Shown here: one piece after another, positions 13,792-62,912 of the stretch | Layout: each line of letters opens with the position of its first letter | How positions within the stretch are numbered: position 1 is the first letter of the stretch | Assembly: GCA_022768185.1 (NCBI GenBank) | Contig: JALEMS010000004.1 | Coordinates: 1-64,000, forward strand | DNA from: Clostridiales bacterium | Lineage (GTDB): Bacteria > Bacillota > Clostridia > Oscillospirales > Oscillospiraceae | Direction: 5' to 3' | Length of the DNA: 64,000 nucleotides | Made by a program: the position numbers and the translations under genes | The notes under the pieces: model-generated | What the model saw: only the letters and a program-made list of their open reading frames with translations | What the model was told of the DNA's origin: nothing | Databases searched by the model: none

Positions 13792-13812
13792 TTTGCGCTT
13801 CCTTCCGTAAAA

Positions 13813-14098: not shown

Positions 14099-14110
14099 AG
14101 TCGTCTGCCC

Positions 14111-14968: not shown

Positions 14969-15001
14969 CGTCCGCATCCTTTCGTATTATGTAAACCGCT
15001 T

Positions 15002-16467: not shown

Positions 16468-16492
16468 GCCCGGAGCACGGCGGGACGCCGCC

Positions 16493-16792: not shown

Positions 16793-16857
16793 GAGAAAAT
16801 CCCCCTTTTTATCATTTTTACAATCCCTCTTGATTCTCCGCGAGAATAACTATCTAT

Positions 16858-16885
16858 AGTATATAAAGCCTGAAAAATCAGGCAA
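16858..16885 (-). promoter_or_regulatory. Promoter of the Cys-rich pair with inverted repeat in the spacer
   Basis: Minus-strand TTGCCT (plus 16880-16885) and TATACT (16858-16863), 16-base spacer. The spacer holds a perfect inverted repeat GCCTGA-AAAA-TCAGGC (16868-16883) that runs into the -35 and could be an operator. Confidence 0.6.
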
Positions 16886-17049
16886 TACTACTTTCGGCAT
16901 ATTTCTTGCCGATTCGGGGCTGTGTCGGGGGAAACGGCCCTCCAAAAGCGGAATCAGAACACAGGTGTTGACACAGGTGTGAATGTCTGACGGTACAGCC
17001 GCTGTGGCCCTCCAGGCCTCTGCTTCCCCTTTCGGAGGTCTTTAAAATA

Positions 17050-17078
17050 TTGACCACCCGGTCTGTTTATGCTATCAT
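17050..17078 (+). promoter_or_regulatory. Promoter upstream of the protease remnant and lipoprotein gene
   Basis: TTGACC (17050-17055), 17-base spacer, TATCAT (17073-17078). It precedes the remnant at 17120 and is the likely promoter for the lipoprotein gene at 17415. A direct repeat of ACACAGGTGT occurs 80 bases upstream (16959-16968, 16971-16980). Confidence 0.65.
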
Positions 17079-17119
17079 GAAATGAACGATTGCTTGTGCT
17101 CGGCTTCCGGGAGGGCCAA

Positions 17120-17385
17120 ATGAAGAAAACGATTGCAGTATTTTTGACGGCGTGGCTGCTCACCACATCAGTCTTTGCCGCGGGAACCGGAGCAAGCTGA
17201 CCTATACCATCCTGCACGAATACGGCCATGTTCTGCCGGAGGACGAGACCCAGATGGACCTCTCCGTCGGGACCAATACCCATGACCCCGCAGGCTTCAT
17301 GGAAGGCTCGTTCCGAATGCGGTATGATGAGCCGGATATGCCGGCTTTGCGTTCCGCGATCCGTGAGAATTTCGGGTTGAGCTAA
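17120..17385 (+). pseudogene. Remnant of an exported zinc metalloprotease
   Basis: The ATG at 17120 has a ribosome site (GGGAGGG) and encodes a good signal peptide (MKKTIAVFLTAWLLTTSVFA) that ends in a stop about 27 codons later. In another frame, starting immediately, a C-terminal fragment reads LTYTILHEYGHVLPEDETQ and ends GSFRMRYDEPDMPALR before a stop at 17383-17385. HEYGH is a classic HExxH zinc site. The two parts look like the ends of one secreted protease joined by an internal deletion that also broke the frame. No intact catalytic protein can be made. Confidence 0.6.
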
Positions 17386-17414
17386 GCGCATTGAGAGCGA
17401 TTAGGGAGGCATCT

Positions 17415-18680
17415 GTGACAAATTATAAGAATATAAAACAAGGTTTCCGCATCCTTTGCGTGGTATTGCTGTTGGCCTGTGTTTTGGCCGGGTGCGGAAA
17501 AAAAGAGGAAACCTCACCCGCTCCGCCTGCTTCCGCAGAGAATGCGCCTCCGGCGTCCGTGCAGGATCCGGAAGCCGAACCGGCAGGTGAGACCGATATG
17601 GAGCAGGAGCAAATTCCTTCCGAAGATACGAATGCCGTCCCCCCGGCAGAATCCGAACTGCCTTCTTCAAAACCGGAACAAGGGCCGGTGGAACCAGAAC
17701 CGCCTCAGCCGGAAACGCTCCTTGCGGTTTCCGACCGGGATATGCTGAAAACGGAGCTGACAGAAGCCATCGTACATCTGCGCCAGCCCGTGCGCATGGA
17801 TATTTCAAAAGTTGGGTTGGCCTCTCCCGAAATGGATATCAAAAACATCTATTATGAGATCGTGGCACAAAATCCACGCCTGAAATACGCCTATAATGTG
17901 ACTGCCATGGTAAATGGGGCGGAATTGACCTGCAAGGTTCATTATATGCCCTATAAAACCGGTGACTTCTCCGCCGATTTTTCCGGTGCGGAGGTTGCAT
18001 CATTAAAGGACCTGCTTCTGACCGCTGAAGAACACATCGGAGAAGAGCCGGTATCCATCCGCATTACAGACTCCGCACTGGACCCGGATACCATGAATCG
18101 CGCTTTGCAGCAGGCAGGGGGCGGATATGTCAATTGCATCCTGAATGTGGATGCTACCGAGATCCGGTACAACGCCCCGGTAGGCATGACGATGGAGGAA
18201 TGCCTGGCGGCACTGCATTCGGCGGAACAGTTGGCCGACGAGGTGATCGCCCAGGTCATCACAGACGGCATGACCCGGCAGGAGCAGGCAGAAGCGCTCT
18301 ATTCTTATGTGACGGAACATGTGACCTACGACCATCGGTATTATGCAGACAGGGCCAATATGCCGTATGCGTCTCAGACCGCGCTGGGCGCGCTGCGGGA
18401 CAGCGTCGCTATTTGCGGCGGCTATTCTCATGCCGTGAAGCTGCTATTTGAGAAGGTTGGAATTCCCTGCTTCAATGTGACCGGTTCTTACTTCCGTGAG
18501 AATCATATGTGGAATTACGTAATACTCGATGGCAAGGGCTACTACTGTGATGCAACTGCTGACAGGGGTGGCCGGAGCAATCATTTTATGCTGACCCCGG
18601 ACGAAATGACGGCGCTCGGAGAGCATAAATGGGATCAGGAATCGGTCGTGAATCTTGCGCATGCCATGGAAGGGATTTGA
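17415..18680 (+). CDS. Lipoprotein with transglutaminase-like domain
   Basis: 421 residues. Signal peptide with lipobox LAGCG at about residues 25-29, followed by a Pro/Glu/Ser-rich linker (roughly 30-100), then a soluble domain. The C-terminal third is transglutaminase-like: SVAICGGYSHAVKLLFEKVG (catalytic Cys), ENHMWNYVILDG (His) and YYCDATADRG (Asp). It may act on the cell envelope as a peptidase or amidase, or only bind. The GTG at 17415 is chosen because AGGGAGG lies six bases before it; an upstream TTG has no ribosome site. It follows the protease remnant by 30 bases. Confidence 0.83.
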   Translation: MTNYKNIKQGFRILCVVLLLACVLAGCGKKEETSPAPPASAENAPPASVQDPEAEPAGETDMEQEQIPSEDTNAVPPAESELPSSKPEQGPVEPEPPQPETLLAVSDRDMLKTELTEAIVHLRQPVRMDISKVGLASPEMDIKNIYYEIVAQNPRLKYAYNVTAMVNGAELTCKVHYMPYKTGDFSADFSGAEVASLKDLLLTAEEHIGEEPVSIRITDSALDPDTMNRALQQAGGGYVNCILNVDATEIRYNAPVGMTMEECLAALHSAEQLADEVIAQVITDGMTRQEQAEALYSYVTEHVTYDHRYYADRANMPYASQTALGALRDSVAICGGYSHAVKLLFEKVGIPCFNVTGSYFRENHMWNYVILDGKGYYCDATADRGGRSNHFMLTPDEMTALGEHKWDQESVVNLAHAMEGI

Positions 18681-19051
18681 AGCTCCCCACCCTCCGCCTG
18701 ATGCTGATTTTCATGCGAAGCCGAAGAAGCCAAACCAGAGCGCGGAGCGCATGGATTGCAAATTAAGAAGGCGGGCTTACGCTTCACCCCGTTGTGGAAG
18801 CAGGTGATTTGATATCGGTCAAAGGAAACAAAGAGTCCGAACCCATCATCAATTGGAAATGGGTTCGGATTCGATCGTTTGTAAGATTCAAGCAGGATCG
18901 ATGCCGTCGTTTTCAGGCCTGTAGCAAAACCAAATCGAAGCCCAGCGGAGCGGGTTCGATTCGGAAAGGGGAAGCGAAGGAATGAGCGAGAGATGACGTT
19001 TGCTTTGAAGAAGAAAACGTCGCCGCAGACGATATGCAGTCCGCGACGACG
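18681..19051. other. Noncoding stretch with a strong hairpin
   Basis: No gene was recognised in 371 bases. TCCGAACCCAT (18836-18846) and ATGGGTTCGGA (18859-18869) form a perfect 11-pair hairpin without a following T-run. The minus strand is open through this region and into tRNA-Leu, but that frame translates a tRNA and is not believable as a protein. Confidence 0.45.
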
Positions 19052-19138
19052 TGGTGCCGGTGACGGGGGTCGAACCCGTACGCTGTCGCCAGCTCGGGAT
19101 TTTAAGTCCCGTGCGTCTGCCTGTTCCGCCACACCGGC
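19052..19138 (-). tRNA. tRNA-Leu (TAA)
   Basis: On the minus strand the acceptor arm GCCGGTG pairs with CACCGGC, followed by A and an encoded CCA. The D-loop reads TGGCGGAACAGGCAGACGC, typical of leucine tRNA, the anticodon loop contains TTAAAAT with anticodon TAA, a long variable arm is present, and the T-loop reads GGTTCGACCCC. 87 bases including CCA. Confidence 0.95.
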
Positions 19139-19152
19139 ACAATTACGCGGTC

Positions 19153-19181
19153 ATCTTAACATTCCGCCCGGAAATTGTCAA
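19153..19181 (-). promoter_or_regulatory. Promoter of tRNA-Leu
   Basis: Minus-strand TTGACA (plus 19176-19181), 17-base spacer, TAAGAT (19153-19158), 15 bases before the mature tRNA. Confidence 0.75.
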
Positions 19182-19221
19182 CGGCTTTCCCCGCCGCATC
19201 CATGCGCCGGAAAAGTTTTCG

Positions 19222-19250
19222 TTGACTTCCGGCGACATTTATGCTATAGT
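19222..19250 (+). promoter_or_regulatory. Promoter of tRNA-Thr
   Basis: TTGACT (19222-19227), 17-base spacer, TATAGT (19245-19250), about 70 bases before the mature tRNA. It is back to back with the tRNA-Leu promoter. Confidence 0.7.
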
Positions 19251-19319
19251 AGCACCGTTCTGTTCCATCCCTCCCGGTCGCAGAGCGGCTGTTTTTCAGA
19301 AGCGGTCTCAAGTTCATAT

Positions 19320-19395
19320 GCTGGCATAGCTCAGTCGGTAGAGCAGCTGATTCGTAATCAGCAGGTCGTGTGTTCGAGTCACATTGCCAGCTCCA
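19320..19395 (+). tRNA. tRNA-Thr (CGT)
   Basis: Acceptor GCTGGCA pairs with TGCCAGC, then T and encoded CCA. D-arm AGCTCAGTCGGTAGAGC, anticodon stem CTGAT/ATCAG with loop TCGTA and anticodon CGT, T-loop TGTTCGAGTCAC. 76 bases. Confidence 0.96.
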
Positions 19396-19396
19396 C

Positions 19397-19432
19397 AAAA
19401 GCGGTGAAAATCCTTTGATTTTCACCGCTTTT
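19397..19432. terminator. Terminator after tRNA-Thr
   Basis: AAAAGCGGTGAAAATC and GATTTTCACCGCTTTT form a perfect 16-pair stem with a four-base loop. Ends in A- and T-runs on both sides, so it also serves the convergent HD-domain gene. Confidence 0.9.
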
Positions 19433-19439
19433 GCAGCTT

Positions 19440-19985
19440 TTAAATCACATTTGACGCACATGAGGAGCTTTCCGGGCAGGAGCCGCGCTCGCCGGACAGA
19501 TACAGGCTGCGCAGCAGGCGTTTGCCGGAAGCTGTTTCGAAGATGTGCTCCAGCGCAGCGCGGACGGCCTGCTCACTGTAGCCGTTCTCTCCGGCATTCA
19601 CCAGGTAGTCCGCCTCCAGCAGGATCCGGTGATCCGGGCCGTCGACGCCGGTATACGTATGGTGGTGCGCCGTCAGCCATGAGACACGCCGGACGGTTTC
19701 CTGCGAAACGGGCAATCCGTCGAAAAACGCCTCCACCAGCGGAGGGCTTTCCAGCTCCTGTTTTTTCCCGTCGGTATTCCCGTATTTCTTGCGGCAGAGC
19801 GGACAGGCAATGTCATGCACGATGGCCGCCAGCTCCAGCGTCTGCTGCATACCGGCATCCAACCCTTCCAGCGCTCCGATCATTTCTGCAAAGGCATGCA
19901 CCTTCATAAAGTGCTCCACATCGTGCAGGTTTCCCTGCGAAAGGGCGATCATCTTTTCCATCGCATCGGCAATCAGCACAGCCAT
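19440..19985 (-). CDS. HD domain phosphohydrolase
   Basis: 181 residues. HD-superfamily metal ligands are visible as DVEHFMKVHAFAEMI, AAIVHDIACPLCRKKYGN (His-Asp pair) and a later AHHHTYTGVDGPDHRILLEADYLVN segment (core LTAHHHTYTG). Likely acts on nucleotides or phosphoesters; substrate unknown. The ATG at 19985 follows GGGAG; the longer upstream frame lacks a ribosome site and overlaps ogt. Third gene of the minus-strand group zinc ribbon, ogt, HD. Confidence 0.85.
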   Translation of the reverse strand: MAVLIADAMEKMIALSQGNLHDVEHFMKVHAFAEMIGALEGLDAGMQQTLELAAIVHDIACPLCRKKYGNTDGKKQELESPPLVEAFFDGLPVSQETVRRVSWLTAHHHTYTGVDGPDHRILLEADYLVNAGENGYSEQAVRAALEHIFETASGKRLLRSLYLSGERGSCPESSSCASNVI

Positions 19986-48989: not shown

Positions 48990-49018
48990 TTGCCTTTTCC
49001 TTCCAACACACTTATAAT
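48990..49018 (+). promoter_or_regulatory. Promoter of the Mrp-type operon
   Basis: TTGCCT (48990-48995), 17-base spacer, consensus TATAAT (49013-49018), 63 bases before the first ATG. Confidence 0.75.
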
Positions 49019-49080: not shown

Positions 49081-49542
49081 ATGTACGTGTTAACCTTTGT
49101 GCTGTGGCTCATCCTGAACGCCAGACTCACATGGGAGGTGGCGGGGATGGGACTTGTGCTCACGGCGCTCTTCGGCGTGTTTTTCGGCTGTTTTCTGGAC
49201 TACCGGCCCCGGAATGAGCTGCGTGCCTGGCGGCGTTTCTTCCTGATGCTGGGATACGTCGGCCTGCTGATCCGGGAGGTCATCAAGTCCAACCTCGCCA
49301 TGATCGACATCGTCTGGGACAAAAGCGTGCCCGTCGCGCCGACGCTCATCACCTTTGACGTGCCGTTGCAGACGCGCTTCTGCCGGATGCTGCTGGCCAA
49401 CTCCATCACCCTCACACCCGGCACCATCACCGTCTCTGTGGACGGCAGCCGCTTCACGGTGCATTGTCTCAGCCGCAGCATGATCGAGGGCATTGAAAGC
49501 GGCGGCATCGCCCGTCTGCTCGGAAAAATGGAGGCCGTATGA
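49081..49542 (+). CDS. mrpE: Na+/H+ antiporter subunit E (MrpE/MbhA-like)
   Basis: 153 residues. Two N-terminal helices (about 3-40), LGYVGLLIREVIKSNLAMI, then a soluble beta domain with ANSITLTPGTITVSVDGSRFTVHCL, typical of MrpE. Start ATG has AAGGAGG nine bases before it. First gene of the ten-gene operon; overlaps mrpF by four bases. Membrane subunit of uncertain role in the ion-pumping complex. Confidence 0.92.
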   Translation: MYVLTFVLWLILNARLTWEVAGMGLVLTALFGVFFGCFLDYRPRNELRAWRRFFLMLGYVGLLIREVIKSNLAMIDIVWDKSVPVAPTLITFDVPLQTRFCRMLLANSITLTPGTITVSVDGSRFTVHCLSRSMIEGIESGGIARLLGKMEAV

Positions 49543-49862
49543 TGGACAGATATTATCACATGCTTTACACCGTGGTGCTGCTTGGCCTCGGTGTGGGGCT
49601 GCTGCTGGCGCTCATCCGCTCCATCCGCGGCCCGCGCGTGGCCGACCGCATCATCGGCGTCAACCTCATCGGCACGCTGGGGGCGCTCTGCATCGTTCTG
49701 CTGGCGCTGCTGCTGGAGGAGGGCTTCATCATCGACGTGGCCCTCATCTACTGTCTGGTGAGCTTTCTTGCCGTGATCGTGCTGGCACGCATCTATATTT
49801 CCACAGAAGCTGCAAAGCAGCGTCTGCAGGAAGCGGAGAAGCAGGAGGACGGCTATGAGTAA
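49539..49862 (+). CDS. mrpF: Na+/H+ antiporter subunit F (MrpF/MbhB-like)
   Basis: 107 residues, three membrane helices. LIRSIRGPRVADRIIGVNLIG is the MrpF hallmark, followed by IIDVALIYCLVSFLAVIVLAR. The tail is polar (AAKQRLQEAEKQE). Overlaps mrpE by four and mrpG by eight bases. Confidence 0.92.
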   Translation: MMDRYYHMLYTVVLLGLGVGLLLALIRSIRGPRVADRIIGVNLIGTLGALCIVLLALLLEEGFIIDVALIYCLVSFLAVIVLARIYISTEAAKQRLQEAEKQEDGYE

Positions 49863-50235
49863 TGTCTGGGACGTGATCCGCTTTATTCTGGCCGCAGTGC
49901 TGATGCTCTTCGGCCTGTTTGATATCCTCACCGGCATTGCGGGCACCTTCCGCTTCCGCTATGCCGTCAACCGCATGCATACGGCCGCCACAGTGGACAG
50001 TCTCGGCACGCTTTCACTGGTGCTGGGCGTGCTCGTCGCAGTCGGGTGGGACGCATCGCTCACCCTCAAGCTGATCTTGCTGGTCGCCTTCCTGTGGCTG
50101 ACCAGCCCGCTGTGCGCGCACATGGTGGCCCGGCTCGAGCTGTGGACCAATGACGAGCCGGAGCGGCATATGACCGTTGAGCAGACGTCGGAGGGCGTCT
50201 GCGGCGTTCCCGAACGGAAGGAGGACAACACATGA
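49855..50235 (+). CDS. mrpG: Na+/H+ antiporter subunit G (MrpG/MbhC-like)
   Basis: 126 residues, three helices: LAAVLMLFGLFDILTGIAG, FRYAVNRMHTAATVDSLGTL (MrpG signature, cf. YxRMHAA), LKLILLVAFLWLTSPLCAHM. A polar tail ends it. Overlaps both neighbours. Confidence 0.92.
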   Translation: MSNVWDVIRFILAAVLMLFGLFDILTGIAGTFRFRYAVNRMHTAATVDSLGTLSLVLGVLVAVGWDASLTLKLILLVAFLWLTSPLCAHMVARLELWTNDEPERHMTVEQTSEGVCGVPERKEDNT

Positions 50236-50507
50236 GCGGACTGGAACTGTTTGCCATCCTGCTTCTGGTTCTGATGGCTGTCTGCGCCATTGCGGTGGTT
50301 TTCATCCGCAGGCTGCTCTCAGCCGTGATCGTCTATTCCATTTTCGGCGTTCTGATGTCGATCATGTGGCTGCTGCTGGAGGCGCCGGATCTGGCCATCA
50401 CCGAGGCCGCCGTCGGCGTCGGCATCAGCGGCATGCTGTTCTTCATCCTGCTGCGGCGCATCCATAAGGTGGACCGGCAGAGAAAGGAGGACCCGACCGA
50501 TGAATGA
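50232..50507 (+). CDS. MbhD-like subunit (DUF4040, MrpA C-terminal part)
   Basis: 91 residues, three helices. LLSAVIVYSIFGVLMSIMWL and LEAPDLAITEAAVGVGISGM are the DUF4040/MbhD pattern, with the conserved acidic residues that line the ion path in MbhD or the MrpA tail. In canonical Mrp this domain is fused to MrpA; here, as in archaeal Mbh, it is a separate protein. Overlaps mrpG by four and the next gene by eight bases. Confidence 0.85.
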   Translation: MSGLELFAILLLVLMAVCAIAVVFIRRLLSAVIVYSIFGVLMSIMWLLLEAPDLAITEAAVGVGISGMLFFILLRRIHKVDRQRKEDPTDE

Positions 50508-51429
50508 ACCCCGCTCCCCCGGTTTTGTCGCCAAATGGAAGCGCTGGCGCAAAGGCTCGCCCGAGCTGCTGCGTGATCTGCAGTGTGAGGCGCTGCCGCA
50601 CATGCACCCGGATCGCCGCGCCAAATACGGCTGGGAGGACCGGCCAAAGGCCCCCATCTCCGCGCAGGACCGAAAGCGCCTGCGCAGCATTTACCGGTCC
50701 CTCGCCATCGTAGCCTGCTCGGTCATCTTCCTGTTTTTCCTGGCCACGGCGCTGACGCTGCCGCGCGTCGGCGACCCTGACGCGCCGGCCATGAACGAGG
50801 TGGTCGACCGTTATCTCAACGACAGCATGGAGGAAACCGGCGTGGTCAACACCGTGGCCGGCGTCATCCTCAGCTATCGTGCCTTCGATACGCTGGGCGA
50901 GGCGCACGTGCTGTTTTCCGCACTGGCTGCCGTGATGATCCTGCTGGAGACGCACGCCGTCACAAAGCGCACAAAGCAGGAGCGTCTGCTGCAGCGCGTC
51001 GTCTGGGGCGCGCAGGGCGACCCCATCATGCAGGAGGTCACGCGCATTCTCTTCCCCGCCGTGGCGCTCTTTGGCATTTACGTCATTTTCAACGGCCACC
51101 TGTCTCCCGGCGGCGGCTTCTCCGGCGGCACCGTCTTCGGCGCCTGCCTGATTCTGCATTCGATCGCCTTCGGCGACGACGAGACGCGCCGCTTCTTCAG
51201 CGAACGCATCTTCCTCATCGTCAAGGTCAGCACCCTGCTGGTCTACAGCATCGTCATGTTCGCCTTTTTCTTCACCGGGGCAAACGGCCTGCCCTGGGCC
51301 TTCCCGCTCGGCACGGTGGGCAACATTTTCAGCTCCGGCCACATTCTGCTCGTCAACATTGTAGTCGGTTTTGAGGTTGCCTGCACGATGTACGGCATGT
51401 ACTCGATGTTTGAAAGGGGGCATGTCTGA
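50500..51429 (+). CDS. MbhE-MrpB fusion subunit
   Basis: 309 residues. Residues 1-65 are polar and cytoplasmic, rich in Arg/Lys/Trp (FVAKWKRWRKGSPELL). A helix at about 68-88 leads to GDPDAPAMNEVVDRYLND-SMEETGVVNTVAGVILSYRAFDTLGE, the MbhE pattern (quoted in two parts). From about residue 165 the MrpB part follows: VTRILFPAVALFGIYVIF, GHLSPGGGFSGGTVFGACL, then NIVVGFEVACTMYGMYSMF. In most systems these are separate (MbhE, MbhF/MrpB) or joined to MrpA. Overlaps mrpC by one base. Confidence 0.85.
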   Translation: MNEPRSPGFVAKWKRWRKGSPELLRDLQCEALPHMHPDRRAKYGWEDRPKAPISAQDRKRLRSIYRSLAIVACSVIFLFFLATALTLPRVGDPDAPAMNEVVDRYLNDSMEETGVVNTVAGVILSYRAFDTLGEAHVLFSALAAVMILLETHAVTKRTKQERLLQRVVWGAQGDPIMQEVTRILFPAVALFGIYVIFNGHLSPGGGFSGGTVFGACLILHSIAFGDDETRRFFSERIFLIVKVSTLLVYSIVMFAFFFTGANGLPWAFPLGTVGNIFSSGHILLVNIVVGFEVACTMYGMYSMFERGHV

Positions 51430-51803
51430 TGCTGGAACTGCTCCGCTCCAATTACATTGAATGCTTTGCCATGTTCCTGTACGCCGTCGGCCTGTTCACG
51501 CTGATCCTCGACAAAAATCTGGTCAAGAAGATCATCGGCATGGACATCATGGACTCTGCGGTCTATCTGCTGCTCGGCTCCATGGGCTATATCCGGGGCG
51601 GCAAGGCGCCCATCCTCACCGAGGGCGTGGAAACCTACGTTTCCCCGCTGCCCACGGGTCTGGTCCTCACCGGCATCGTCGTGTCGGTCAGCGTCAGCGC
51701 GCTGATGATGGCGCTCGCCATCCGGCTCTATGGAAAATACCACACGCTGGATATCGACGAGATCTACCTGCTCGCCAGGCGCGGAGAGGGGGAGAACGTA
51801 TGA
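51429..51803 (+). CDS. mrpC: Na+/H+ antiporter subunit C (MrpC/NuoK-like)
   Basis: 124 residues, three helices, NuoK-like. AMFLYAVGLFTLILDKNLVKKIIG at the start (core LILDKNLVKKIIGMDI), then LPTGLVLTGIVVSVSVSALM, the conserved MrpC segment. Overlaps the first pump gene by four bases. Confidence 0.92.
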   Translation: MLELLRSNYIECFAMFLYAVGLFTLILDKNLVKKIIGMDIMDSAVYLLLGSMGYIRGGKAPILTEGVETYVSPLPTGLVLTGIVVSVSVSALMMALAIRLYGKYHTLDIDEIYLLARRGEGENV

Positions 51804-53341
51804 GACCGGTCTTTTATAACTTCCCGATGGTCTCCATCGTGCTCTCGCTTGTGTGCGCTGTGATCTCCTCGGTGCTGCGCGGTCGGGCTGCGCGAACACT
51901 GTCGCTGTTTCTGTGTACGGCGGTCGCGGTGCTCTCGGCCTGCACACTGGGGTATACGGTATCCTGCGGCGAGGAGCTGACCTACGTCATGGGCCGGTTT
52001 CCCGCCCCGTGGGGCAACGAGATCCGCTTCGGCATCGTCGAGCCGCTCATCGCCCTGTCCTTCAGCATCGTTCTGCTGCTGTGCATCGTCGGCGGGAAAA
52101 AGCAGCTGCAGCGCGACATCGACACGGGCAAGGCAAACCTTTATTATGTCATGATCGATCTGGTGCAGGCAGCGCTGCTGACCCTGTCGTACACCAACGA
52201 CATCTTCACCGCCTTCGTCTTCGTCGAAATCTGCACCATTTCCTCCAGCGGCCTGCTGATGATCCGCGGCCTCGGCCGCACCACGCTGGCCTCCATCCGC
52301 TATCTGGTGTTCAGCCTGGTCGGCTCGGGCCTGTTCCTCATCGGGTGCGTGCTCATCTACGGCGTCACCGGACATCTGCTCATGCCGTTTATCAAGGAGC
52401 AGATTGCCGTGCTCTGGGCCACTGGACAGTACCGGCTGCCGCTGCTGATGATTGTCGGGCTGATCACGATGGGGCTTGCCATCAAGAGCGGCATGTGGCC
52501 CTTCCACTTCTGGATGCCCGACACCTACAGCTACACCACCCCCGCCTCCTCCGGCATTCTGTCTGGCCTCATCTCCAAAATCTACATTCTCCTGCTGCTG
52601 CGCTTTGTCTTCTGCGTGTTCGGCACAGAGGTGTTCTATGCCACCGGCATTGCCGCCGTGCTGTTTGTGTGCGGGCTGGCCGGGATGCTGTTCGGCTCGC
52701 TGCGCGCCATCCGCGAAAACCACATCATGCGTATGCTGGCCTTCTCCTCAGCGGCACAGATCGGCTACATTTATATGGGCATCGGTCTGTCTCCGGCACT
52801 GGGCGTTGCAGCCGCCGTGCTGCACATCCTGTGCCACGCCGTCACTAAGCCCCCGCTGTTTCTTGCCGCTGCCGAGCTGACGGACGCCGCCGGCGGCAGC
52901 GCCCGCTTTGCCGATCTGCAGGGTGCGGCATACCGTGCGCCGATGTCCGCCGCCGTGTTCCTGATCGGCTCGCTGTCGATGGTGGGCATTCCGCTCCTCT
53001 TCGGCTTCATTACGAAATTCCGCTTTGCTGCCGCAGCCATCACGGGCGGCGGCTGGATGATGCTGCCGGCGCTGGTCATGCTGGCCGTCAGCACCGTTCT
53101 CAACACCATGTACCTGCTGCGCACGGTGCTGCGCATCTACTCCACGAGGCTTGAGCCGGAGGAGCACGGCCCCGCCCGCGAGGCGGGCGAACCGCCGATG
53201 GCGCCCGAGCCGGTTCCGCACCTGCACTCCGGAGCATGCTTTGCCGGGGCAACGGGCGTGTTCTGCGCGCTCAACGTGGCCTTCGGCGTGTGGTCGCAGC
53301 CGCTGTGGGATCTGCTGGTCCGCGGCCTGCAGCTGCTTTAA
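51800..53341 (+). CDS. Antiporter-like subunit 1 (MrpD/NuoN type)
   Basis: 513 residues, about 14 helices, complex I antiporter-like fold. Key residues retained: Glu at about 143 (TAFVFVEICTISSS) and Lys at about 229 (GLAIKSGMWPFHFWMPDTY), the charged pair of the proton channel. A polar loop near residues 445-470 (RLEPEEHGPAREAGEPP) precedes the last helix. The ATG at 51800 overlaps the mrpC stop, which sets the start. First of four such subunits in the operon; position matches MbhH/MrpD. Confidence 0.92.
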   Translation: MRPVFYNFPMVSIVLSLVCAVISSVLRGRAARTLSLFLCTAVAVLSACTLGYTVSCGEELTYVMGRFPAPWGNEIRFGIVEPLIALSFSIVLLLCIVGGKKQLQRDIDTGKANLYYVMIDLVQAALLTLSYTNDIFTAFVFVEICTISSSGLLMIRGLGRTTLASIRYLVFSLVGSGLFLIGCVLIYGVTGHLLMPFIKEQIAVLWATGQYRLPLLMIVGLITMGLAIKSGMWPFHFWMPDTYSYTTPASSGILSGLISKIYILLLLRFVFCVFGTEVFYATGIAAVLFVCGLAGMLFGSLRAIRENHIMRMLAFSSAAQIGYIYMGIGLSPALGVAAAVLHILCHAVTKPPLFLAAAELTDAAGGSARFADLQGAAYRAPMSAAVFLIGSLSMVGIPLLFGFITKFRFAAAAITGGGWMMLPALVMLAVSTVLNTMYLLRTVLRIYSTRLEPEEHGPAREAGEPPMAPEPVPHLHSGACFAGATGVFCALNVAFGVWSQPLWDLLVRGLQLL

Positions 53342-53353
53342 GGGGGTGCGGAC

Positions 53354-54823
53354 ATGAAACACTTCTGTATGCCTGTTCTGATCGCGCTGCCCGTTCTGGC
53401 CGGCATCGTGCTGGCCGCGGCGCGGATGCGCCGCCGGACGTGCAAGCTCTGGCTGATGACCGCCGTGTTTGCCGTGGAGGCCGCCGGCGTCGTGTGGCTG
53501 GCGCTCAACGGCGCCGATGACGTCACGCTCTTCCGCCTCACCGACACGCTGGTCATCTCGCTCTCGCTCGACCGGCTGGGCAAGCTGTTTGCGCTCGTGT
53601 TCAGCTTTGCATGGATGCTGGTCGGTATCTTCTCCTTCCGGTATATGACACATGAGAAGCGCGAGGATCTGTTTTTCTCCTTCTTTCTCATCTGCGAGGG
53701 CATGCTGCTGGGCGCGTGCTTTGCGGCAAATCTCATTTCGCTCTACCTCTTTTATGAAATGGTCTCGCTGCTGTCGATGCCGCTGGTGCTGCATTCGCTC
53801 ACGCGCGAGGCCGTGGCCGCCGCGCTCAAGTATCTGTTCTATTCCGTTGGCGGCGCATTTCTGGCCCTGTTCGGCCTGTTTGTCCTGTCCCGATACTGCA
53901 CCACGCTCACCTTCACGCCGGGCGGCACGCTCGATCTTGCCGCGCTGCCTGGCAAGGAAAACCTCGTGCGCGCGGCTGCCTTCTGCTCCATCCTCGGCTT
54001 CGGCGTGAAGGCAGGTCTCTTCCCGCTGCACGCTTGGCTGCCGACGGCGCACCCGGTCGCCCCCGCGCCGGCCAGCGCGGTGCTCTCCGGCATCATCACG
54101 AAAATCGGCGTCATCGCCTCCATCCGCATGATCTACTGCATCACCGGCACCCAACTGCTGGCCGGCAGCTGGGTACAGCAGACGCTGCTCGTGCTCTCTC
54201 TCATCTCGGTGTTCATGGGATCGATGATGGCCCTCCGCGAAACGGTCTTCAAAAAGCGTCTGGCCTACTCCACGGTCAGTCAGGTGTCCTACGTGCTGAC
54301 GGGTGTGTTTCTCATGAATGAGCAGGCGCTCACCGGCGGTCTGCTGCATGTCGTCTTCCATGCGAGCATCAAGGTCTGTCTCTTCCTCACAGCCGGCTCC
54401 ATCATCTACCACACCGGCAAGACCAACGTCACCGACTACCGCGGGCTCGGAAAGCAGATGCCGCTGACGCTGTGGTGCTTCACCTTTGCCTCGCTTGCGC
54501 TGGTGGGTATCCCGCCGTTTTCGGGCTTTGTCAGCAAATGGTATCTGGCCGCCGGCGCGCTCGGCTCCGGCCTGGGCGCATTCACGTGGGTCATCCCGGC
54601 AGTGCTGCTCATCTCGGCGCTGCTGACAGCCGGCTACCTCATCACCATCACGGCCATCGGCTTCTTCCCGGGCAAGGACTTCGTCGTCCGCGGAAAACGG
54701 TGCGACGGTTCCGTTCTCATGTGGGGGCCCATTGCGGCTCTGGCGCTGTTTTGCCTGCTGGCCGGCGTCTTCTCCGGCGTGCTCGTCGACCTGGCCCGGT
54801 CGGTCGCACAGAGCCTGATGTAA
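53354..54823 (+). CDS. Antiporter-like subunit 2 (MrpD/NuoM type)
   Basis: 489 residues. Conserved Glu at 135 (LYLFYEMVSLLSMPLV) and Lys at 219 (LGFGVKAGLFPLHAWLPTAH, then PVAPAPASAVLSG), close to E137/K219 of Bacillus-type MrpD. A second Lys in helix 12 area (ISAFSGFVSKW-type segment, FSGFVSKWYLAAGA). Likely carries one proton path. Twelve bases after subunit 1, with its own ribosome site. Confidence 0.92.
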   Translation: MKHFCMPVLIALPVLAGIVLAAARMRRRTCKLWLMTAVFAVEAAGVVWLALNGADDVTLFRLTDTLVISLSLDRLGKLFALVFSFAWMLVGIFSFRYMTHEKREDLFFSFFLICEGMLLGACFAANLISLYLFYEMVSLLSMPLVLHSLTREAVAAALKYLFYSVGGAFLALFGLFVLSRYCTTLTFTPGGTLDLAALPGKENLVRAAAFCSILGFGVKAGLFPLHAWLPTAHPVAPAPASAVLSGIITKIGVIASIRMIYCITGTQLLAGSWVQQTLLVLSLISVFMGSMMALRETVFKKRLAYSTVSQVSYVLTGVFLMNEQALTGGLLHVVFHASIKVCLFLTAGSIIYHTGKTNVTDYRGLGKQMPLTLWCFTFASLALVGIPPFSGFVSKWYLAAGALGSGLGAFTWVIPAVLLISALLTAGYLITITAIGFFPGKDFVVRGKRCDGSVLMWGPIAALALFCLLAGVFSGVLVDLARSVAQSLM

Positions 54824-54836
54824 GGAGGTGCTGAAG

Positions 54837-56318
54837 ATGCTTGGTTCTTATTGGATTCTGCTTCCGGTCTTCTTCCCCATCGTCATGGGTTGCCTCTATT
54901 TTGCCGTCGGTCTGGCGCTGAAAAACAACAAGGCTGCGCGCGAGTGGTTCCTGATGGCGGTGACGCTGGTCACCTCGCTGTCCATGTGGGCGCTGATCCT
55001 CTGGGGCGACGGGCAGCCGCTGGAGCTGTTCCGCTTCACGCGGGAGCTGTCCTTTGTCTTCCGCATCGACGGGCTGGGCAAGCTGTTCGCGGGGCTGGTG
55101 GCCACGCTGTGGCCCGTTACCATGCTGTACGCCTTCGAGTATATGCGCTATGAAAAGCGTCAGCGCACCTTCTTTGCGTTCTTCCTGATGGCCTACGGCG
55201 TCACGCTCGGCATCGCCTGCGCCGGCAACCTCACGACCATGTACTGCTTTTACGAAATGCTCACGCTCAGCACCGTGTACCTCGTGCTGCACCCGATGAC
55301 GGAGCGCTCCGTGCGCGCCGCGCGCGCGTATCTGGCCTATTCCATCGGCGGCGCGGCCTTCGGCTTCCTGGGGCTGGCCTTCCTGGTGATGCAGGGCGCG
55401 GGCGGTCTGTTCACGCTCGGCGGCCTGCTGACGGAATATGCCGGCAGCATTCACACACTGTGCTTCGTGTTCATGATGGGCTTCCTCGGCCTGAGCGTCA
55501 AGGCAGCCGTGTTCCCGTTCCACGGGTGGCTGGTGAAGGCCGCCGTCGCTCCCACGCCCGTCACGGCGCTGCTGCATGCCGTGGCCGTCGTCAAGGCCGG
55601 CGCGTTTGCCTGCATCCGCTTCACGTATTACTGCTTCAGCCCCGACCTGATGCGCGGCACCTGGGCGCAGACGGTCATTCAGGCGCTGGTGATCTTCACG
55701 ATCTTCTACGGCTCGGCCATGGCGCTGAAGGAAACGCACCTCAAGCGCCGGCTGGCCTATTCCACGGTATCGAATCTGTCCTACGTGCTCTTCGGCGTCG
55801 CGCTGATGACCAGGGCCGGCATGATGGCCGCGCTGCTGCACATCCTGTTCCACGCGGTGGTAAAGATCCTCGGCTTCTTCAACGCCGGCGGCATCCTGCA
55901 CGAGACGGGCCTGCAGTACCTGCCGGACCTCAACGGCATGGCGAAAAAAATGCCCGTTACCTGGGCCACCTTCACGGTTTCGGCGCTGGGCCTGTCCGGC
56001 ATCCCGCTGTTCAACGGCTTCATCAGCAAGTGGAACCTGCTGGTAGCCGCCGCGCAGGCGGACACGGTCATGGGCTACATCGGCTCGGTCGTGCTGCTCA
56101 TCTCGGCGCTGCTGACGGCCATCTACATGTTCAGCGTGGTCGTGCGCGCCTACTTCCCGCGCCGGGACGATGACCTCTCCCGGCTCGCGCAGGTGCACGA
56201 GGTCAACCTCTATATGGCCATTCCCTTCGTGCTGCTTGCCGTCATCATTGTCGTCACGGGCATTTACTGTGTTCCGCTGGAGCATCTGGCGCACAGCATT
56301 GCCTACGGCCTGCTGTAA
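54837..56318 (+). CDS. Antiporter-like subunit 3 (MrpD/NuoM type)
   Basis: 493 residues. Glu at 140 (TTMYCFYEMLTLSTVYLV) and Lys at 222 (GLSVKAAVFPFHGWLVKAAV, then APTPVTALLHAV). PLFNGFISKWNLLVAA marks the helix 12 Lys. The ATG at 54837 is chosen because AAGGAGG lies nine bases before it; a GTG three codons upstream overlaps the ribosome site. Differs enough from subunit 2 that the duplication is not recent. Confidence 0.92.
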   Translation: MLGSYWILLPVFFPIVMGCLYFAVGLALKNNKAAREWFLMAVTLVTSLSMWALILWGDGQPLELFRFTRELSFVFRIDGLGKLFAGLVATLWPVTMLYAFEYMRYEKRQRTFFAFFLMAYGVTLGIACAGNLTTMYCFYEMLTLSTVYLVLHPMTERSVRAARAYLAYSIGGAAFGFLGLAFLVMQGAGGLFTLGGLLTEYAGSIHTLCFVFMMGFLGLSVKAAVFPFHGWLVKAAVAPTPVTALLHAVAVVKAGAFACIRFTYYCFSPDLMRGTWAQTVIQALVIFTIFYGSAMALKETHLKRRLAYSTVSNLSYVLFGVALMTRAGMMAALLHILFHAVVKILGFFNAGGILHETGLQYLPDLNGMAKKMPVTWATFTVSALGLSGIPLFNGFISKWNLLVAAAQADTVMGYIGSVVLLISALLTAIYMFSVVVRAYFPRRDDDLSRLAQVHEVNLYMAIPFVLLAVIIVVTGIYCVPLEHLAHSIAYGLL

Positions 56319-56330
56319 AGGAGGCGCATC

Positions 56331-58403
56331 ATGAACGACAACCTGCTTCTTTTCATTGTTTTCTTCCCCTTTATCGCGGGCCTGCTGGCCTACCCGCTCG
56401 GCAAGGCGTCCAACCGGGCGCGCAACGTCTGGGTAGGGCTGGTGTCCATCGCGGAGTTTGCCGTGACGGTATACGCCTGCGTGCAGGCCGGCAGCGGCAC
56501 ACTGCATGCCGGCTGGCAGGGCTTCTGCAGTCTCGGCCTGCGTTTTGAGATGGACGGCTTCCGCCGCGTCTACTGCGTGGTGCTGGCCTTCATGTGGATG
56601 ATGACGCTGCTGTACTCCCCGGAGTATTTCGCCCATCACCATCACCGCAGCCGCTACTACCTGTTCAACCTCTTCACCCTCGGCGCAACAGCCGGCATGT
56701 TTCTTGCGCAGGATCTGTGCACCGCATTCGTCTTCTTTGAGATCATGTCCTTCACGTCCTACACCTGGGTCGTCCAGGAGGAGACGCCGGAGGCCATCCG
56801 CGCAGCCAACACCTACCTTGGCATCTGCATCATCGGCGGCCTGACGGCCCTGATGGGCCTGTTCCTGCTGCAGCACCACCTCGGCACGCTGGAGATCAGC
56901 CGCCTGTATGAGGCGGCCGCCGCCTTTGAAAACAAAACCGTCCTCTACTGGGCCGGCGCGTGCCTGCTGTTCGGCTTCGGCGCAAAGGCCGGTATGTTCC
57001 CGCTGCACATCTGGCTGCCGAAGGCGCACCCGGTGGCCCCGGCTCCGGCCAGCGCCCTGCTCTCCGGCATTCTCACAAAGGCCGGCGTGTTCGGCATCCT
57101 CGCCGTCACCTGCAGCGTGTTCCGCTATGACCCGGCCTGGGGTCGCGTGATCCTCGTGCTCGGCACGGTCACGATGGTGCTCGGCGCGCTGCTGGCGCTG
57201 GTTGGCGTCAATCTCAAGCGCGTGCTCGCCTGCTCCTCGCTGTCGCAGATCGGCTTCATTCTGGTCGGCGTGGGCATGATGGGCCTGCTGGGCGAGCACA
57301 ACGCCCTGGCCGGCCGCGGCGCGCTGCTGCACATGGTCAACCACTCCACCTTTAAGCTGGTGCTCTTCATGGTGGCCGGCGTCGTCTTCATGAACACGCA
57401 CAAGCTGGAGCTCAACGACATCCGCGGCTTTGGCCGCGGTAAGCCCCTGCTGCACTTCTGCTATCTCATGGGTGCGCTCGGCATCGGCGGCATCCCGCTG
57501 TGGAGCGGCTACGTCAGCAAAACGCTGCTGCATGAGTCCATCGTGGAATACGCCGCGGAGCTGGCCGCGCATGGGCTGCCCGCCGGCGGCATCCACGCTG
57601 TTGAATGGCTGTTTCTCTTCACCGGCGGCCTCACGCTCACCTATATGACCAAGCTTTACGTCGCGCTCTTCTGGGAAAAGAATCCGGATGCAAAGCTGCA
57701 GGCCGCCTACGACCGGAAGCGCCCGTGCATGAATCCTGTCAGCAGGTTCGCACTCGGGGTCCCGGCGGCGGCCATCCTCGTCATGGGTCTGTTGCCCAAC
57801 GCCGTGATGGATCGCATCGCCGACGTCGGCACGGACTTTCTGCACCTCGGCCCGATGGAGCACGCCGTGCACTACTTCACATGGACGAACCTGAAGGGGG
57901 CCGTCATCTGCATCGTCATCGCCGCCGTGCTCTATCCGCTCGTCGTTCGCCGTCTGCTGATGCGTACACAAAACGGCGTGCGTGTCTACGTCAACGTGCT
58001 GCCGACGTGGATGGATCTGGAGGACAGCGTCTACCGGCCGTTCTTCCGCGTCCTGTTCCGCTTTCTCGGCAACGTTGCCCACTGTGTATGCGACGCGCTG
58101 GACGCTGTCGTACTGCTGCTGCATAAGCTGATCTTCTTTGCAAAGGACGTAAAGAGCGACGACTCCACCTCCCGCTCGCTCGTCTACCGCACCGGCCGCC
58201 TGCTCGACCGTGTCTGCGCCGCCTGCAGGGGCGAGCCGCTCGCCTGGGACGAGGAAGGCCCCCATGCAGAGCATATGGTCGAGCGCGCCGCCGTGCGCCG
58301 CTATCGGGAAAGCCTCATCACCAGCGCCATGTCCTTTGCGCTGCTGCTGATGGTGATGGCGCTGGCCGCCGCGTTGATTTATTTGCTGATTCGCAATACC
58401 TGA
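56331..58403 (+). CDS. Antiporter-like subunit 4 (MrpA/NuoL type, extended C-terminus)
   Basis: 690 residues. Antiporter-like fold at about 1-520 with Glu 137 (TAFVFFEIMSFTSYTWVV) and Lys 219 (GFGAKAGMFPLHIWLPKAHP). The C-terminal ~170 residues hold a helix at about 525-545, a polar region with YVNVLPTWMDLEDSVYRPFF and DDSTSRSLVYRTGRLLDRVC, and a last helix (about 665-685). Such a lateral extension recalls the NuoL/MrpA tail that braces complex I-like machines, though homology cannot be shown by eye. The MbhD/MbhE domains usually found at the MrpA C-terminus are encoded separately upstream. Confidence 0.9.
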   Translation: MNDNLLLFIVFFPFIAGLLAYPLGKASNRARNVWVGLVSIAEFAVTVYACVQAGSGTLHAGWQGFCSLGLRFEMDGFRRVYCVVLAFMWMMTLLYSPEYFAHHHHRSRYYLFNLFTLGATAGMFLAQDLCTAFVFFEIMSFTSYTWVVQEETPEAIRAANTYLGICIIGGLTALMGLFLLQHHLGTLEISRLYEAAAAFENKTVLYWAGACLLFGFGAKAGMFPLHIWLPKAHPVAPAPASALLSGILTKAGVFGILAVTCSVFRYDPAWGRVILVLGTVTMVLGALLALVGVNLKRVLACSSLSQIGFILVGVGMMGLLGEHNALAGRGALLHMVNHSTFKLVLFMVAGVVFMNTHKLELNDIRGFGRGKPLLHFCYLMGALGIGGIPLWSGYVSKTLLHESIVEYAAELAAHGLPAGGIHAVEWLFLFTGGLTLTYMTKLYVALFWEKNPDAKLQAAYDRKRPCMNPVSRFALGVPAAAILVMGLLPNAVMDRIADVGTDFLHLGPMEHAVHYFTWTNLKGAVICIVIAAVLYPLVVRRLLMRTQNGVRVYVNVLPTWMDLEDSVYRPFFRVLFRFLGNVAHCVCDALDAVVLLLHKLIFFAKDVKSDDSTSRSLVYRTGRLLDRVCAACRGEPLAWDEEGPHAEHMVERAAVRRYRESLITSAMSFALLLMVMALAAALIYLLIRNT

Positions 58404-58603: not shown

Positions 58604-58632
58604 TTGAAAAACGATCAAAATTATTATATAAT
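58604..58632 (+). promoter_or_regulatory. Promoter of the dehydratase activase gene
   Basis: TTGAAA (58604-58609), 17-base spacer, consensus TATAAT (58627-58632), in an AT-rich island 45 bases before the ATG. Confidence 0.8.
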
Positions 58633-58676: not shown

Positions 58677-61600
58677 ATGCTGGGAAGCTACGCATTTGGC
58701 ATCGACATTGGCTCCACCACCGTAAAGGTCGCGCTGCTCGACCAACAGCTCCGCCTGCTTTACGCAGACTATCAGCGCCATTTCGCCAACATTCAGGAAA
58801 CGCTCGCCGAGCTGCTCGAGCGTGCCTGCGCCAAGCTCGGCAGTCTGACGCTGCGCCCCGTCATCACCGGCTCCGGCGGTCTGGCGCTGGCACAAAAGCT
58901 GGGTATCCCGTTCGTTCAGGAGGTCATCGCCGTCTCCGCCGCGCTGCGGAAGGAAGCCCCCCAGACGGATGTGGCCATCGAGCTGGGCGGCGAGGACGCC
59001 AAGATCATTTATTTTGAAAACGGCAACACCGAGCAGCGCATGAACGGCATCTGCGCCGGCGGTACCGGTGCGTTCATCGACCAGATGGCCACCCTGCTGC
59101 ACACCGATGCAGCCGGCCTCAACGAGCTGGCCGAGCAGAGCGCCTCCATCTATCCCATCGCCGCACGCTGCGGCGTGTTTGCAAAAACCGACATTCAGCC
59201 GCTCATCAACGACGGCGCGGCACGTGAGGACCTGGCCGCCTCCATCTTTCAGGCGGTCGTCAACCAGACCATTTCCGGCCTGGCCTGCGGCAAGCCCATC
59301 CGCGGCCACGTGGCCTTTCTCGGCGGCCCGCTGCACTTTCTGCCGCAGCTCAAGCAGCGCTTTGTCCTCACGCTCGGACTGGACGAAGCGCACACCATCG
59401 CCCCGGAGCAGGCGCACCTGTTTGCCGCCATCGGCAGCGCCATGCAGGCCGACGGCGCGCCCGAATGCAGCGCAGACGAACTGATCGCCCGACTGCACAG
59501 TCATGTTGCCATCGACATGGAGGTAGAGCGCCTTGCCCCGCTGTTTGAAAGCGAGGCGGACTATGCCGCCTTCATCGCGCGCCAGAACCGCTACCATGTG
59601 CCCCGCCGCCCGCTTGAGCACTATCGCGGCCGCTGCTACCTGGGCATCGACGCCGGCTCTACCACGACGAAGGCCGTGCTGGTCGGTGAGGACGGCGCCC
59701 TGCTTTACGGCTTTTACGACAACAACCACGGCAACCCGCTCTCCACCGCCATCCGCGCCATGCGCGAGATCCACCACGTGCTGCCCGAGGGCGCGGAAAT
59801 TGCCTGGTCGTGCTCCACGGGGTATGGCGAGGCGCTCATCAAGGCCGCGCTCGAGCTGGACGAGGGCGAGGTGGAAACCGTCGCGCACTACACCGCCGCC
59901 GCCTTTTTCGATCCGCAGGTCGACTGTATCCTCGATATCGGCGGGCAGGACATGAAATGCATCACCATCCGCGACGGCGCGGTGGACAGTGTGCTGCTCA
60001 ACGAAGCCTGCTCCTCCGGCTGCGGCTCGTTCATCGAAACGTTTGCCCAGTCGCTCGGCTGCACGGTTCAGGAATTTGCGCAGCAGGCCCTGCACGCGGC
60101 GCACCCGATCGACCTGGGCACCCGCTGCACCGTGTTCATGAACTCCAAGGTCAAGCAGGCCCAAAAGGAAGGCGCAACCGTTGCCGACATTTCCGCAGGT
60201 CTGGCCTATTCCGTCATCAAAAACGCGCTTTATAAGGTCATCAAGGTCTCAGACGCCTCGCAGCTGGGCCGCCATATCGTTGCCCAGGGCGGCACATTCT
60301 ACAACGACGCCGTGCTCAAGAGCTTCGAGCGCATCGCCGGCTGTGAGGTCATCCGTCCGGACATCGCCGGCCTCATGGGTGCGTTCGGCGCAGCCCTCAT
60401 CGCACGCGACCGCGCCGTGCCAGGCCGGGCCTCGTCCATGCTGCCCATGGAGCAGATTTCCGCCCTGCAAAGCACCACGACCATGACCAACTGTAACGGC
60501 TGCTCCAATCACTGCCGCCTCACCGTCAATCATTTTTCCGACGGCCGCCGCTACATCAGCGGAAACCGCTGCGAACGCGGCGCAGGCAAGGCAAAGCGCC
60601 TGTCGGATGTTCCGAATCTCTTTGAATACAAATGCCGGCGGTTGTTCGACTATACGCCTTTGCAGGGCGAACAGGCGCCGCGCGGGCGCGTGGGTCTGCC
60701 GCGCGTGCTCAATTTCTACGAAAACTATCCCTTCTGGTTCACATTCTTCACGAAGCTTGGCTATGAGGTGGTGCTCTCGCCGGAGTCGACGCGCAAGATC
60801 TACGAGCTGGGCATCGAGTCGATCCCCAGCGAATCGGAGTGCTATCCGGCAAAGCTGGCCCACGGCCATGTCATGTGGCTGCTGCAGCAGGGCGTATCCT
60901 ACATTTTCTATCCCTGCATCCCCTACGAGCGCGCGGAGTTCCCCGGGGCCGTCAATCACTATAACTGCCCCATCGTCACCTCCTATGCGGAAAACATCAA
61001 AAACAACATAGAGGAGCTGACCGCGCCGGGCGTACGCTTTGAGTGCCCGTTTCTGGCCTTTACCAGCGAGGAGACCCTGACCGACGGTCTGCTCAAGGCC
61101 TTCCCCGCGCTGCCGCAGAACGAGGTTCGCGCTGCCGCACATGCCGGCTGGGAGGAGCTGGCCCGCATGCGTGAGGACATCCGCCGCAAGGGCGAGGAAA
61201 CGCTCGACTGGATGCAGAAAAACGGCCGCACCGGCATTGTCCTGGCCGGCAGGCCATACCATCTCGACCCTGAAATTCACCACGGGATCCCGGAGATGAT
61301 CGCCTCCTACGGTGTGGCCGTGCTGACGGAGGACGCCGTGTCCCACCTGGCCCCGATTGAGCGCCCGCTGCGTGTCAACGACCAGTGGATGTACCACACC
61401 CGGCTGTACGCTGCAGCCGCCCTCGTGCGTCAGCGGGAGGATCTCAATCTCATCCAGCTCAATTCCTTCGGCTGCGGTCTGGACGCCGTCACCACCGATC
61501 AGGTACACGAGATTCTTGAATCTGCCGGCAAGATCTACACCTGTCTGAAGATCGACGAGGTCAATAACCTTGGCGCGGCGCGCATCCGTGTGCGCTCGCT

Positions 61601-62912
61601 GCTGGCTGCGCTGGCGGCCCGGCAGAAGGCGGGCATGCCGCGCGTCATCCGGCCCATGTCCATCGAGCGCGTCCCCTTCACCAGGCAGATGCGGAAGGAA
61701 TACACCATTCTCTGTCCGCAGATGGCTCCCATCCACTTTGCCATCATTGAGGAGGCCTTCCGCGCCAGCGGCTACCGGCTGGTAATCCTGTCCAATGACA
61801 ACAAGCAGGCCGTAAACGTCGGCCTCAAATACGTCAACAACGACGCCTGCTACCCCTCCCTGCTTGTGGTGGGACAGATCATGCAGGCGCTGCTCAGCGG
61901 CGAGTACGATCTCAACCGTACCGCCGTCATCATGAGCCAGACCGGCGGCGGCTGCCGCGCGTCCAACTATATTGCCTTCATCCGCCGCGCGCTGAAGAAG
62001 GCCGGCATGGAGCAGATTCCCGTCATCTCCGCCAACCTCAGCGGACTGGAGCAGCACCCCGGCTTCAAAATCACGCCGGGTCTCGCCGTCCGCGCTGCCA
62101 TGGCTGCGGGCCTGGGAGATGTGCTGATGCGCTGCATCTACCGCATGCGGCCCTACGAGCTGGAGCCAGGCGCGGTCAACGCCCTGCACCGCCGGTGGGA
62201 AGCGCGCTGCCGCGCCCTTGTCGCCTCGGCACACCCGTCGCTGGCCGCTTACCGGCGCATGTGCCGCCAAATCATCGAAGACTTCGACCGCGTCCCCATC
62301 TCGGAGGAACGCAAGGTGCGCGTCGGCGTGGTCGGCGAGATCCTCGTCAAGTTCTCCCCCATGGCCAACAATCATCTGGTGGACACACTCGAGCGCGAGG
62401 GCGCAGAGGCTGTTGTGCCCGATCTGCTCGACTTCATGAGCTACTGCCTGTACAACACCAACTTCAAGGCCGAATACCTCGGCACGAAGCCCTCCTCCGC
62501 ACGCAAGGCCAATCTTGGCATCCGGCTGATCGAATGGCTGCGCAAAACCGCTGTGGAGGCCTTCTCCCGCAGCAGGCACTTCACTCCGCCGGCCCGCATC
62601 GAGCACCTGGCCGAGATGGCCAAAGCCGTCGTCTCGCTCGGCAACCAGACCGGCGAAGGGTGGTTTCTCACCGGCGAAATGCTTGAGCTGATCGAAAGCG
62701 GCGTGCCGAACATCGTGTGCACGCAGCCCTTCGGCTGCCTGCCCAACCACATTGTCGGAAAGGGCGTCATCAAGCAGCTGCGCCGCCTGCATCCCGAGGC
62801 CAACATCGTCGCCATCGACTACGACCCCGGCGCCAGCGAGGTCAACCAGCTCAACCGCCTCAAACTGATGCTCTCCAATGCACAGCGGAACCTGCAGGCA
62901 CAGAATGGATAA
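58677..62912 (+). CDS. Fused 2-hydroxyacyl-CoA dehydratase activase (BcrAD/BadFG type)
   Basis: 1411 residues. Two ASKHA ATPase domains in tandem: residues 1-~300 ([48 protein letters not shown]) and ~320-600 ([55 protein letters not shown]). A Cys-bearing segment [15 protein letters not shown] and GNRCERG follows near 610-650, then DUF2229 and a dehydratase-like C-terminal half ([57 protein letters not shown]). Such fused proteins are common in Clostridia; the smaller relatives inject electrons into dehydratases by ATP hydrolysis. No dehydratase genes are adjacent, so the client is unknown. Confidence 0.88.

Follow-up and report, generated by a model that had tools for sequence, protein, structure and literature searches.

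Group 3 Mrp systems have no fused mrpA, and mrpD is present "sometimes with multiple copies" (PMC8415708). The stand-alone mrpEFGBB'CD cluster of Pyrococcus furiosus encodes one pump (PMC8415708), and the FGBCDDAE cluster of Microbacterium contains three pump genes (PMC5703873). In complex I, four pumps are found in the 2M type of Nitrospira and the green type of rhizobia (Chadwick 2018, as cited in PMC7419157 and PMC9040806), and five in Manganitrophaceae (PMC9040806, PMC7419157). Experiments have yet to settle the stoichiometry of Mrp, canonical Mrp included (PMC7419157, PMC9568556). Here we describe a ten-gene Mrp-like operon on the plus strand, at positions 49081–58403 of a 64,000-nucleotide stretch of DNA (the window) from a Clostridiales bacterium of the Oscillospiraceae (assembly GCA_022768185.1, contig JALEMS010000004.1, positions 1 to 64,000). 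The operon contains homologues of MrpB, C, D, E, F and G, no fused MrpA, and four proteins with the PF00361 domain, which we call pumps P1 to P4. Sequence comparisons suggest that its product is probably a stand-alone antiporter of monovalent cations and protons, of the Mrp type (CPA3, group 3), that has four proton-channel subunits and derives from a three-pump ancestor.

Like the Mrp of P. furiosus, the operon starts with E, F and G, has B subunits of the MbhD/MbhE type followed by C and then D, lacks a redox module, and belongs to a genome that also encodes an Mbh. It differs in having four pumps instead of one, and in fusing MbhE to MrpB where P. furiosus fuses MbhD to MbhE. With the MBS and MBX complexes (PMC7684303) it shares the MbhE-MrpB (MbsE) fusion, the equivalents of MbsD E58 and of the MbsG acidic residue, and a terminal pump with a lateral helix, but those complexes have two pumps (MbsH and MbsH') and a peripheral redox arm, whereas the operon has four pumps and no redox arm. 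The families of the cation module are those of canonical Mrp groups 1 and 2 (6Z16, 7D3U, 7QRU), and P1 resembles MrpD, and P4, by fold, the N-domain of MrpA. Groups 1 and 2 have a single MrpA polypeptide that unites the N-terminal pump with the C-terminal domain; here, unlike in canonical Mrp, MrpA is split into separate genes for P4, MbhD and MbhE, the last within MbhE-MrpB, two extra pumps are present, and the MrpC His pair and the MrpF Asp are missing. The 2M and green complexes I also gained a fourth pump, convergently; these are quinone-linked redox enzymes with a lengthened lateral helix in 2M, whereas the operon shows neither a redox arm nor lengthening relative to its three-pump relatives.

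The first-pass annotation, made from the letters of the window, had suggested that the ten-gene order be sought across Clostridia. The MbhE-MrpB fusion was present in approximately 21 of 295 genomes of the same order. A scan of genome contigs with a P1 alignment gave approximately 35 named loci at 38–52% identity, and the hosts, both metagenome-assembled genomes and isolates, included organisms labelled Lachnospiraceae, Butyricicoccus pullicaecorum ET57, Oscillibacter sp., Eisenbergiella sp. and others. Class-wide and phylum-wide searches added further loci. After annotation with the window's proteins, all ten genes were found in exactly the same order at 43 distinct loci in many families of Clostridia (two duplicates of the same contigs were not counted twice), and this recurrence rules out chance or an assembly artefact as the source of the order. 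The pumps are orthologous position by position across loci, and P2 and P3 are both retained, in constant order, in every complete locus. The hydrogenase genes J, K, L and M are in none of the 43 ten-gene loci.

In the window the genes overlap or nearly do so, with successive spacings of -4, -8, -4, -8, -1, -4, +12, +4 and +12 bp (negative values are overlaps). Pfam gives the order MNHE, MrpF_PhaF, PhaG_MnhG, MbhD, MbhE plus MnhB in one open reading frame, Oxidored_q2 and four Proton_antipo_M proteins. These correspond to MrpE (49081–49542, 153 residues; PF01899, 2e-24), MrpF (49539–49862, 107 residues; PF04066, 4e-11), MrpG (49855–50235, 126 residues; PF03334, 6e-17), MbhD, which is part 1 of the MrpA C-terminal region (50232–50507, 91 residues; PF13244, 6e-22), the MbhE-MrpB fusion (50500–51429, 309 residues; PF04039, 1e-22), and the NuoK-like MrpC (51429–51803, 124 residues; PF00420, 1e-19). 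The MbhE match in the fusion is weak (PF20501, 1e-5; 25.7 bits against a cut-off of 27), and the best match of the fusion in the PDB is 6u8y_E. The pumps follow as P1, which is MrpD/MbsH/NuoN-like (51800–53341, 513 residues; PF00361, 4e-45; PDB matches 6u8y_H and 7qru_D), the middle pumps P2 (53354–54823, 489 residues; PF00361, 2e-58) and P3 (54837–56318, 493 residues; PF00361, 2e-51), and the terminal, MrpA-N/NuoL-like P4 (56331–58403, 690 residues; PF00361, 2e-53). NCBIfam gives the same subunit types, although none of the listed matches of the ten proteins attains a curated cut-off. Both the Pfam matches and the gene spacing thus agree with the gene content and tight packing described in the first-pass annotation.

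All four pumps have the residues of an antiporter-like channel at the positions read in the first-pass annotation, which had placed a helix-5 Glu at 143, 135, 140 and 137 and a helix-7 Lys at 229, 219, 222 and 219, counting P3 from the ATG at 54837. The full sets are E143, K229, K260 and K406 in P1, E135, K219, K250 and K395 in P2, E137, K219, K250 and K397 in P4, and E140 and K222 (E143 and K225 if counted from an upstream GTG) with a helix-8 His and a helix-12 Lys in P3. Across 52, 45, 45 and 43 aligned homologs of P1, P2, P3 and P4, respectively, there is no variation at the helix-5 Glu, the helix-7 Lys or the helix-12 Lys, and the helix-8 Lys is likewise invariant in the homologs of P1, P2 and P4. 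In helix 8 of P3, a motif longer by one residue, LHAVAVVKAG, carries an invariant His, and a Lys is additionally present in 36 of the 45 homologs. The P3 gene could start at GTG 54828 (496 residues) or at ATG 54837; the latter is the most likely start because it is preceded by a well-spaced AAGGAG Shine-Dalgarno sequence.

Three-pump operons of Bacillota with separate MbhE and MrpB genes were found in Peptoclostridium acidaminophilum, in no fewer than eight other genomes from the class, and in others in the phylum. Such relatives, for example that of P. acidaminophilum, are likewise stand-alone. The P. acidaminophilum operon has the order E-F-G-MbhD-MbhE-MrpB-C, then orthologs of P1, P2/P3 and P4, and differs from the window operon in its single middle pump and its unfused MbhE and MrpB. 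In two maximum-likelihood trees of the pumps, P1 and P4 clustered with the first and last pumps of three-pump operons. P2 and P3 were sisters, with a Shimodaira–Hasegawa-like approximate likelihood ratio test (SH-aLRT) support of 99 in one tree and 100/100 in the other, and the pair was placed next to the lone middle pump found in three-pump operons with support of 81/89, which is under the strict threshold. In helix 8, P3 still has the motif seen in the middle subunit of three-pump operons, and P2 has diverged from it. From the sister relationship of P2 and P3, their position next to the three-pump middle pump and the helix-8 motif that P3 has in common with that pump, the most likely origin of the four-pump operon is a three-pump ancestor in which the middle pump was duplicated and MbhE became fused to MrpB.

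A single origin for all four-pump operons was not supported. Three other loci (L214, L215 and L190) also have four pumps, but with MbhE and MrpB unfused, and their extra pump comes from a different branch (96/95, with L132) and is not sister to their other middle pump. The trees therefore indicate a second, independent gain of a fourth pump. A pump has also been gained by another route at L191 and L192: of the three pumps encoded by each of these operons, the second and third are P4-type and form sister branches. Separately, a complex I-like cluster in a Moritella genome (L147) has four antiporter-like subunits, one of which falls near the middle Mrp pumps in the tree.

An AlphaFold model of P4 built from a 25-sequence alignment (mean predicted local distance difference test score 84.5) shows the pump fold, transmembrane helix 15 (TM15; 518–542), an amphipathic helix at 563–601 continuing at 612–633 with low confidence, and a final transmembrane helix (TM16). 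The best Foldseek matches of P4 are MrpA chains. Because the modelled fold is MrpA-like with TM15, a lateral helix and TM16, P4 has the predicted features of a terminal, bracing subunit.

The cation end of the operon, as judged from conserved residues, is of the Mbh/Mbs type. MbsD E58 and MbsG E37 are residues of the MBS complex (PMC7684303); in the operon, E58 of MbhD is invariant and occupies the same position as MbsD E58, and D42 of MrpC is invariant at the position of MbsG E37. The counterpart of canonical MrpA E706 (Anoxybacillus flavithermus numbering) is offset to this Mbh-type E58. In the MbhE-MrpB fusion, R127, D130, E134 and a GGGF motif that includes the MrpB Phe are invariant. D130 and E134 probably correspond to D792 and E796 of A. 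flavithermus MrpA (PMC7419157), as their four-residue spacing and motif agree. The assignment to the Mbh/Mbs type rests on the placement of E58 and D42 and also on the lack of conservation of the canonical MrpC His and MrpF Asp.

That lack of conservation is one of two points that weigh against a four-channel Mrp antiporter. Asp35/38 of MrpF is implicated in Na+ transfer in canonical Mrp. By PDB alignment and alignment column, the canonical Asp35/Asp38 site is Asn42 in the operon, invariant in 46 of 46 relatives, and the His pair of canonical MrpC (His37/His40, A. flavithermus numbering) is absent from the MrpC of the operon, so the predicted cation path departs from that of characterised Mrp. 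The other point is the lateral helix. Its length tracks pump number in the MBS paper (PMC7684303), but the TM15–TM16 linker of P4 has 117 residues, within a family range of 79–166, and that of P4 orthologs in three-pump operons has 93–153. Compared with three-pump relatives the lateral helix of P4 appears not to be lengthened and gives no support for one row of four pumps, nor does it speak decisively against one; its length was therefore dropped as proof of such a row.

The unextended helix, like the sister relationship of P2 and P3, would also suit a division of the four pumps between two alternative assemblies (P1+P2+P4 and P1+P3+P4, for example) that have the E-F-G-B-C module in common. 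We consider this unlikely. Both paralogues occur in every complete locus in constant order with all key residues invariant, and a separate second lineage also gained four pumps between the same end subunits. On the reading that we favour, a four-pump Mrp antiporter, P1 to P4 would all belong to one complex.

The first-pass annotation had proposed either an expanded antiporter or an ion-pumping module docked to a redox enzyme whose genes lie elsewhere. The phylogeny, the conserved gene order and the intact state of the pump residues support the former; the latter is not supported. For the operon to encode the membrane arm of a pump driven by redox chemistry, a module such as a group 4 hydrogenase or a ferredoxin oxidoreductase would have to dock to it, and the resemblance of MbhD, the MbhE-MrpB fusion and MrpC to MBH/MBS more than to canonical Mrp is in keeping with such docking. 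By Pfam over the ten genes, the operon lacks the hydrogenase subunits J, K, L and M, in agreement with the first-pass annotation, and neither NuoH nor the Q-module partners of complex I (49 kDa, PSST) were found within it. A group 4 hydrogenase is present on another contig of the same genome, which by itself would also favour docking. Apart from the four pumps, the genome has a single PF00361 protein; it lies on this contig, C73, with the sole Oxidored_q6 protein and the sole Complex1_49kDa protein of the genome, in a complete Mbh-type group 4 [NiFe] hydrogenase operon followed by HypA/HypE/HypD/HypC/HypF-like genes (6490–19666; N, K and the hyp genes were assigned by position and eye). The large subunit retains the CGIC and DPCFSC motifs. 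This operon already encodes its own E-F-G-MbhD-MbhE-B-C-H together with a NuoH-like M, J, N, K and L. From its gene content, the hydrogenase is thus equipped with a complete set of Mrp subunits and a membrane subunit, and does not need the subunits of the window operon.

The distribution of redox genes is also at odds with docking. Complex1_49kDa (PF00346), the family of the complex I and group 4 hydrogenase large subunits, is absent from 20 of the 22 operon-bearing genomes and present only in the window's own and one other; a complex I-like or Mbh-like partner therefore cannot be general. None of the 43 ten-gene loci has a redox gene linked to the operon. Clustering of flanking genes at 56 loci gave no recurrent redox neighbour, except that at four (L047, L054, L100 and L109) the operon starts 116–192 bp from a divergent rnfCDG-like cluster (genes named by eye). 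This proximity would favour a redox partner, but may instead reflect shared regulation. The Rnf family (PF03116) is present in 18 of 22 operon genomes and in 265 of 295 genomes of the order; given this base rate there is no special link, and an association between Rnf and the operon was rejected. Docking to a redox enzyme is thus very unlikely. PF03116 was not found in the window's genome, of which the assembly is 90.6% complete, and it is possible that Mbh replaces Rnf in this organism. Three genomes of one related genus (G013, G125 and G194) also lack PF03116.

As a stand-alone Mrp antiporter, the operon would, by analogy with characterised Mrp, catalyse Na+(K+)/H+ antiport, and the same analogy suggests the transported cation and the direction of transport. 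E, F, G, MrpB, MbhD, MbhE and MrpC would form the cation-translocating end, P1 would abut MrpC, P2 and P3 would extend the row, and P4, with its lateral helix and TM16, would cap the far end. With the membrane potential as the main driving force, protons would pass inward along the linked Glu-Lys-Lys/His-Lys axis of the pumps, and coupling would extend to a cation site close to MrpB, MrpC, MbhD and MbhE that would expel Na+ or K+. A different enzyme would act as the primary pump that makes the gradient: in the window's organism the Mbh hydrogenase, in most relatives Rnf. The extra pumps could raise the H+/cation ratio, and with more protons per cation even a weak proton-motive force could build a steeper cation gradient, which would suit fermenters. 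A single Mrp complex with a row of four channels, which arose from three-pump antiporters on two or more occasions in Bacillota and in which the H+/cation ratio rises with each pump, is a tentative proposal that we regard as possible.

The complex might instead run mainly in reverse: Rnf or Mbh would set up an inward Na+ gradient that drives proton export and so tops up the proton gradient for a proton-type ATP synthase. By analogy with the MBH of P. furiosus, the Mbh of the window's genome is expected to make a Na+ gradient. In Na+-type c-rings, Ser or Thr follows the Glu. The only F-type c-subunit of the genome reads GQG...MEALAIY, with Ala after the Glu, so the ATP synthase is probably proton-coupled. 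However, characterised Mrp complexes run protons in and the cation out, several protons per cation would demand a very large Na+ gradient, and the cation specificity of Rnf is not established in most relatives. We therefore regard the reverse mode as rather improbable, and retain cation export by a four-pump Mrp antiporter as the preferred reading.

The genes on either side of the operon are a Mur ligase upstream on the opposite strand and, at 58677–62912, a 1411-residue BcrAD_BadFG/DUF2229 CoA-enzyme activase downstream, and from their identities neither neighbour is a redox partner. Consensus scanning found a promoter-like site, TTGCCT-17-TATAAT, on the plus strand at 48990–49018, 62 bp upstream of MrpE, and a second at 58604–58632 ahead of the CoA-enzyme activase gene.

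Group 3 Mrp with multiple MrpD has been recognised before, and complexes I that contain four or five pumps have been described; the new aspect is the presence of four pumps in a stand-alone Mrp, of which no description was found in a search limited to open-licence papers. The term "under-described" in the first-pass annotation is therefore fair. If the four pumps co-assemble, the operon would provide a natural test of whether the number of channel subunits sets the number of protons moved. With three- and four-pump Mrp that have orthologous end subunits, pump number could be varied against a constant cation module and constant ends. Mrp systems with one, two, three and four pumps would then form a redox-free series for testing whether each antiporter-like subunit moves its own proton. 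The operon also draws attention to a means of ion cycling in common anaerobic gut Clostridia on which little work has been done.

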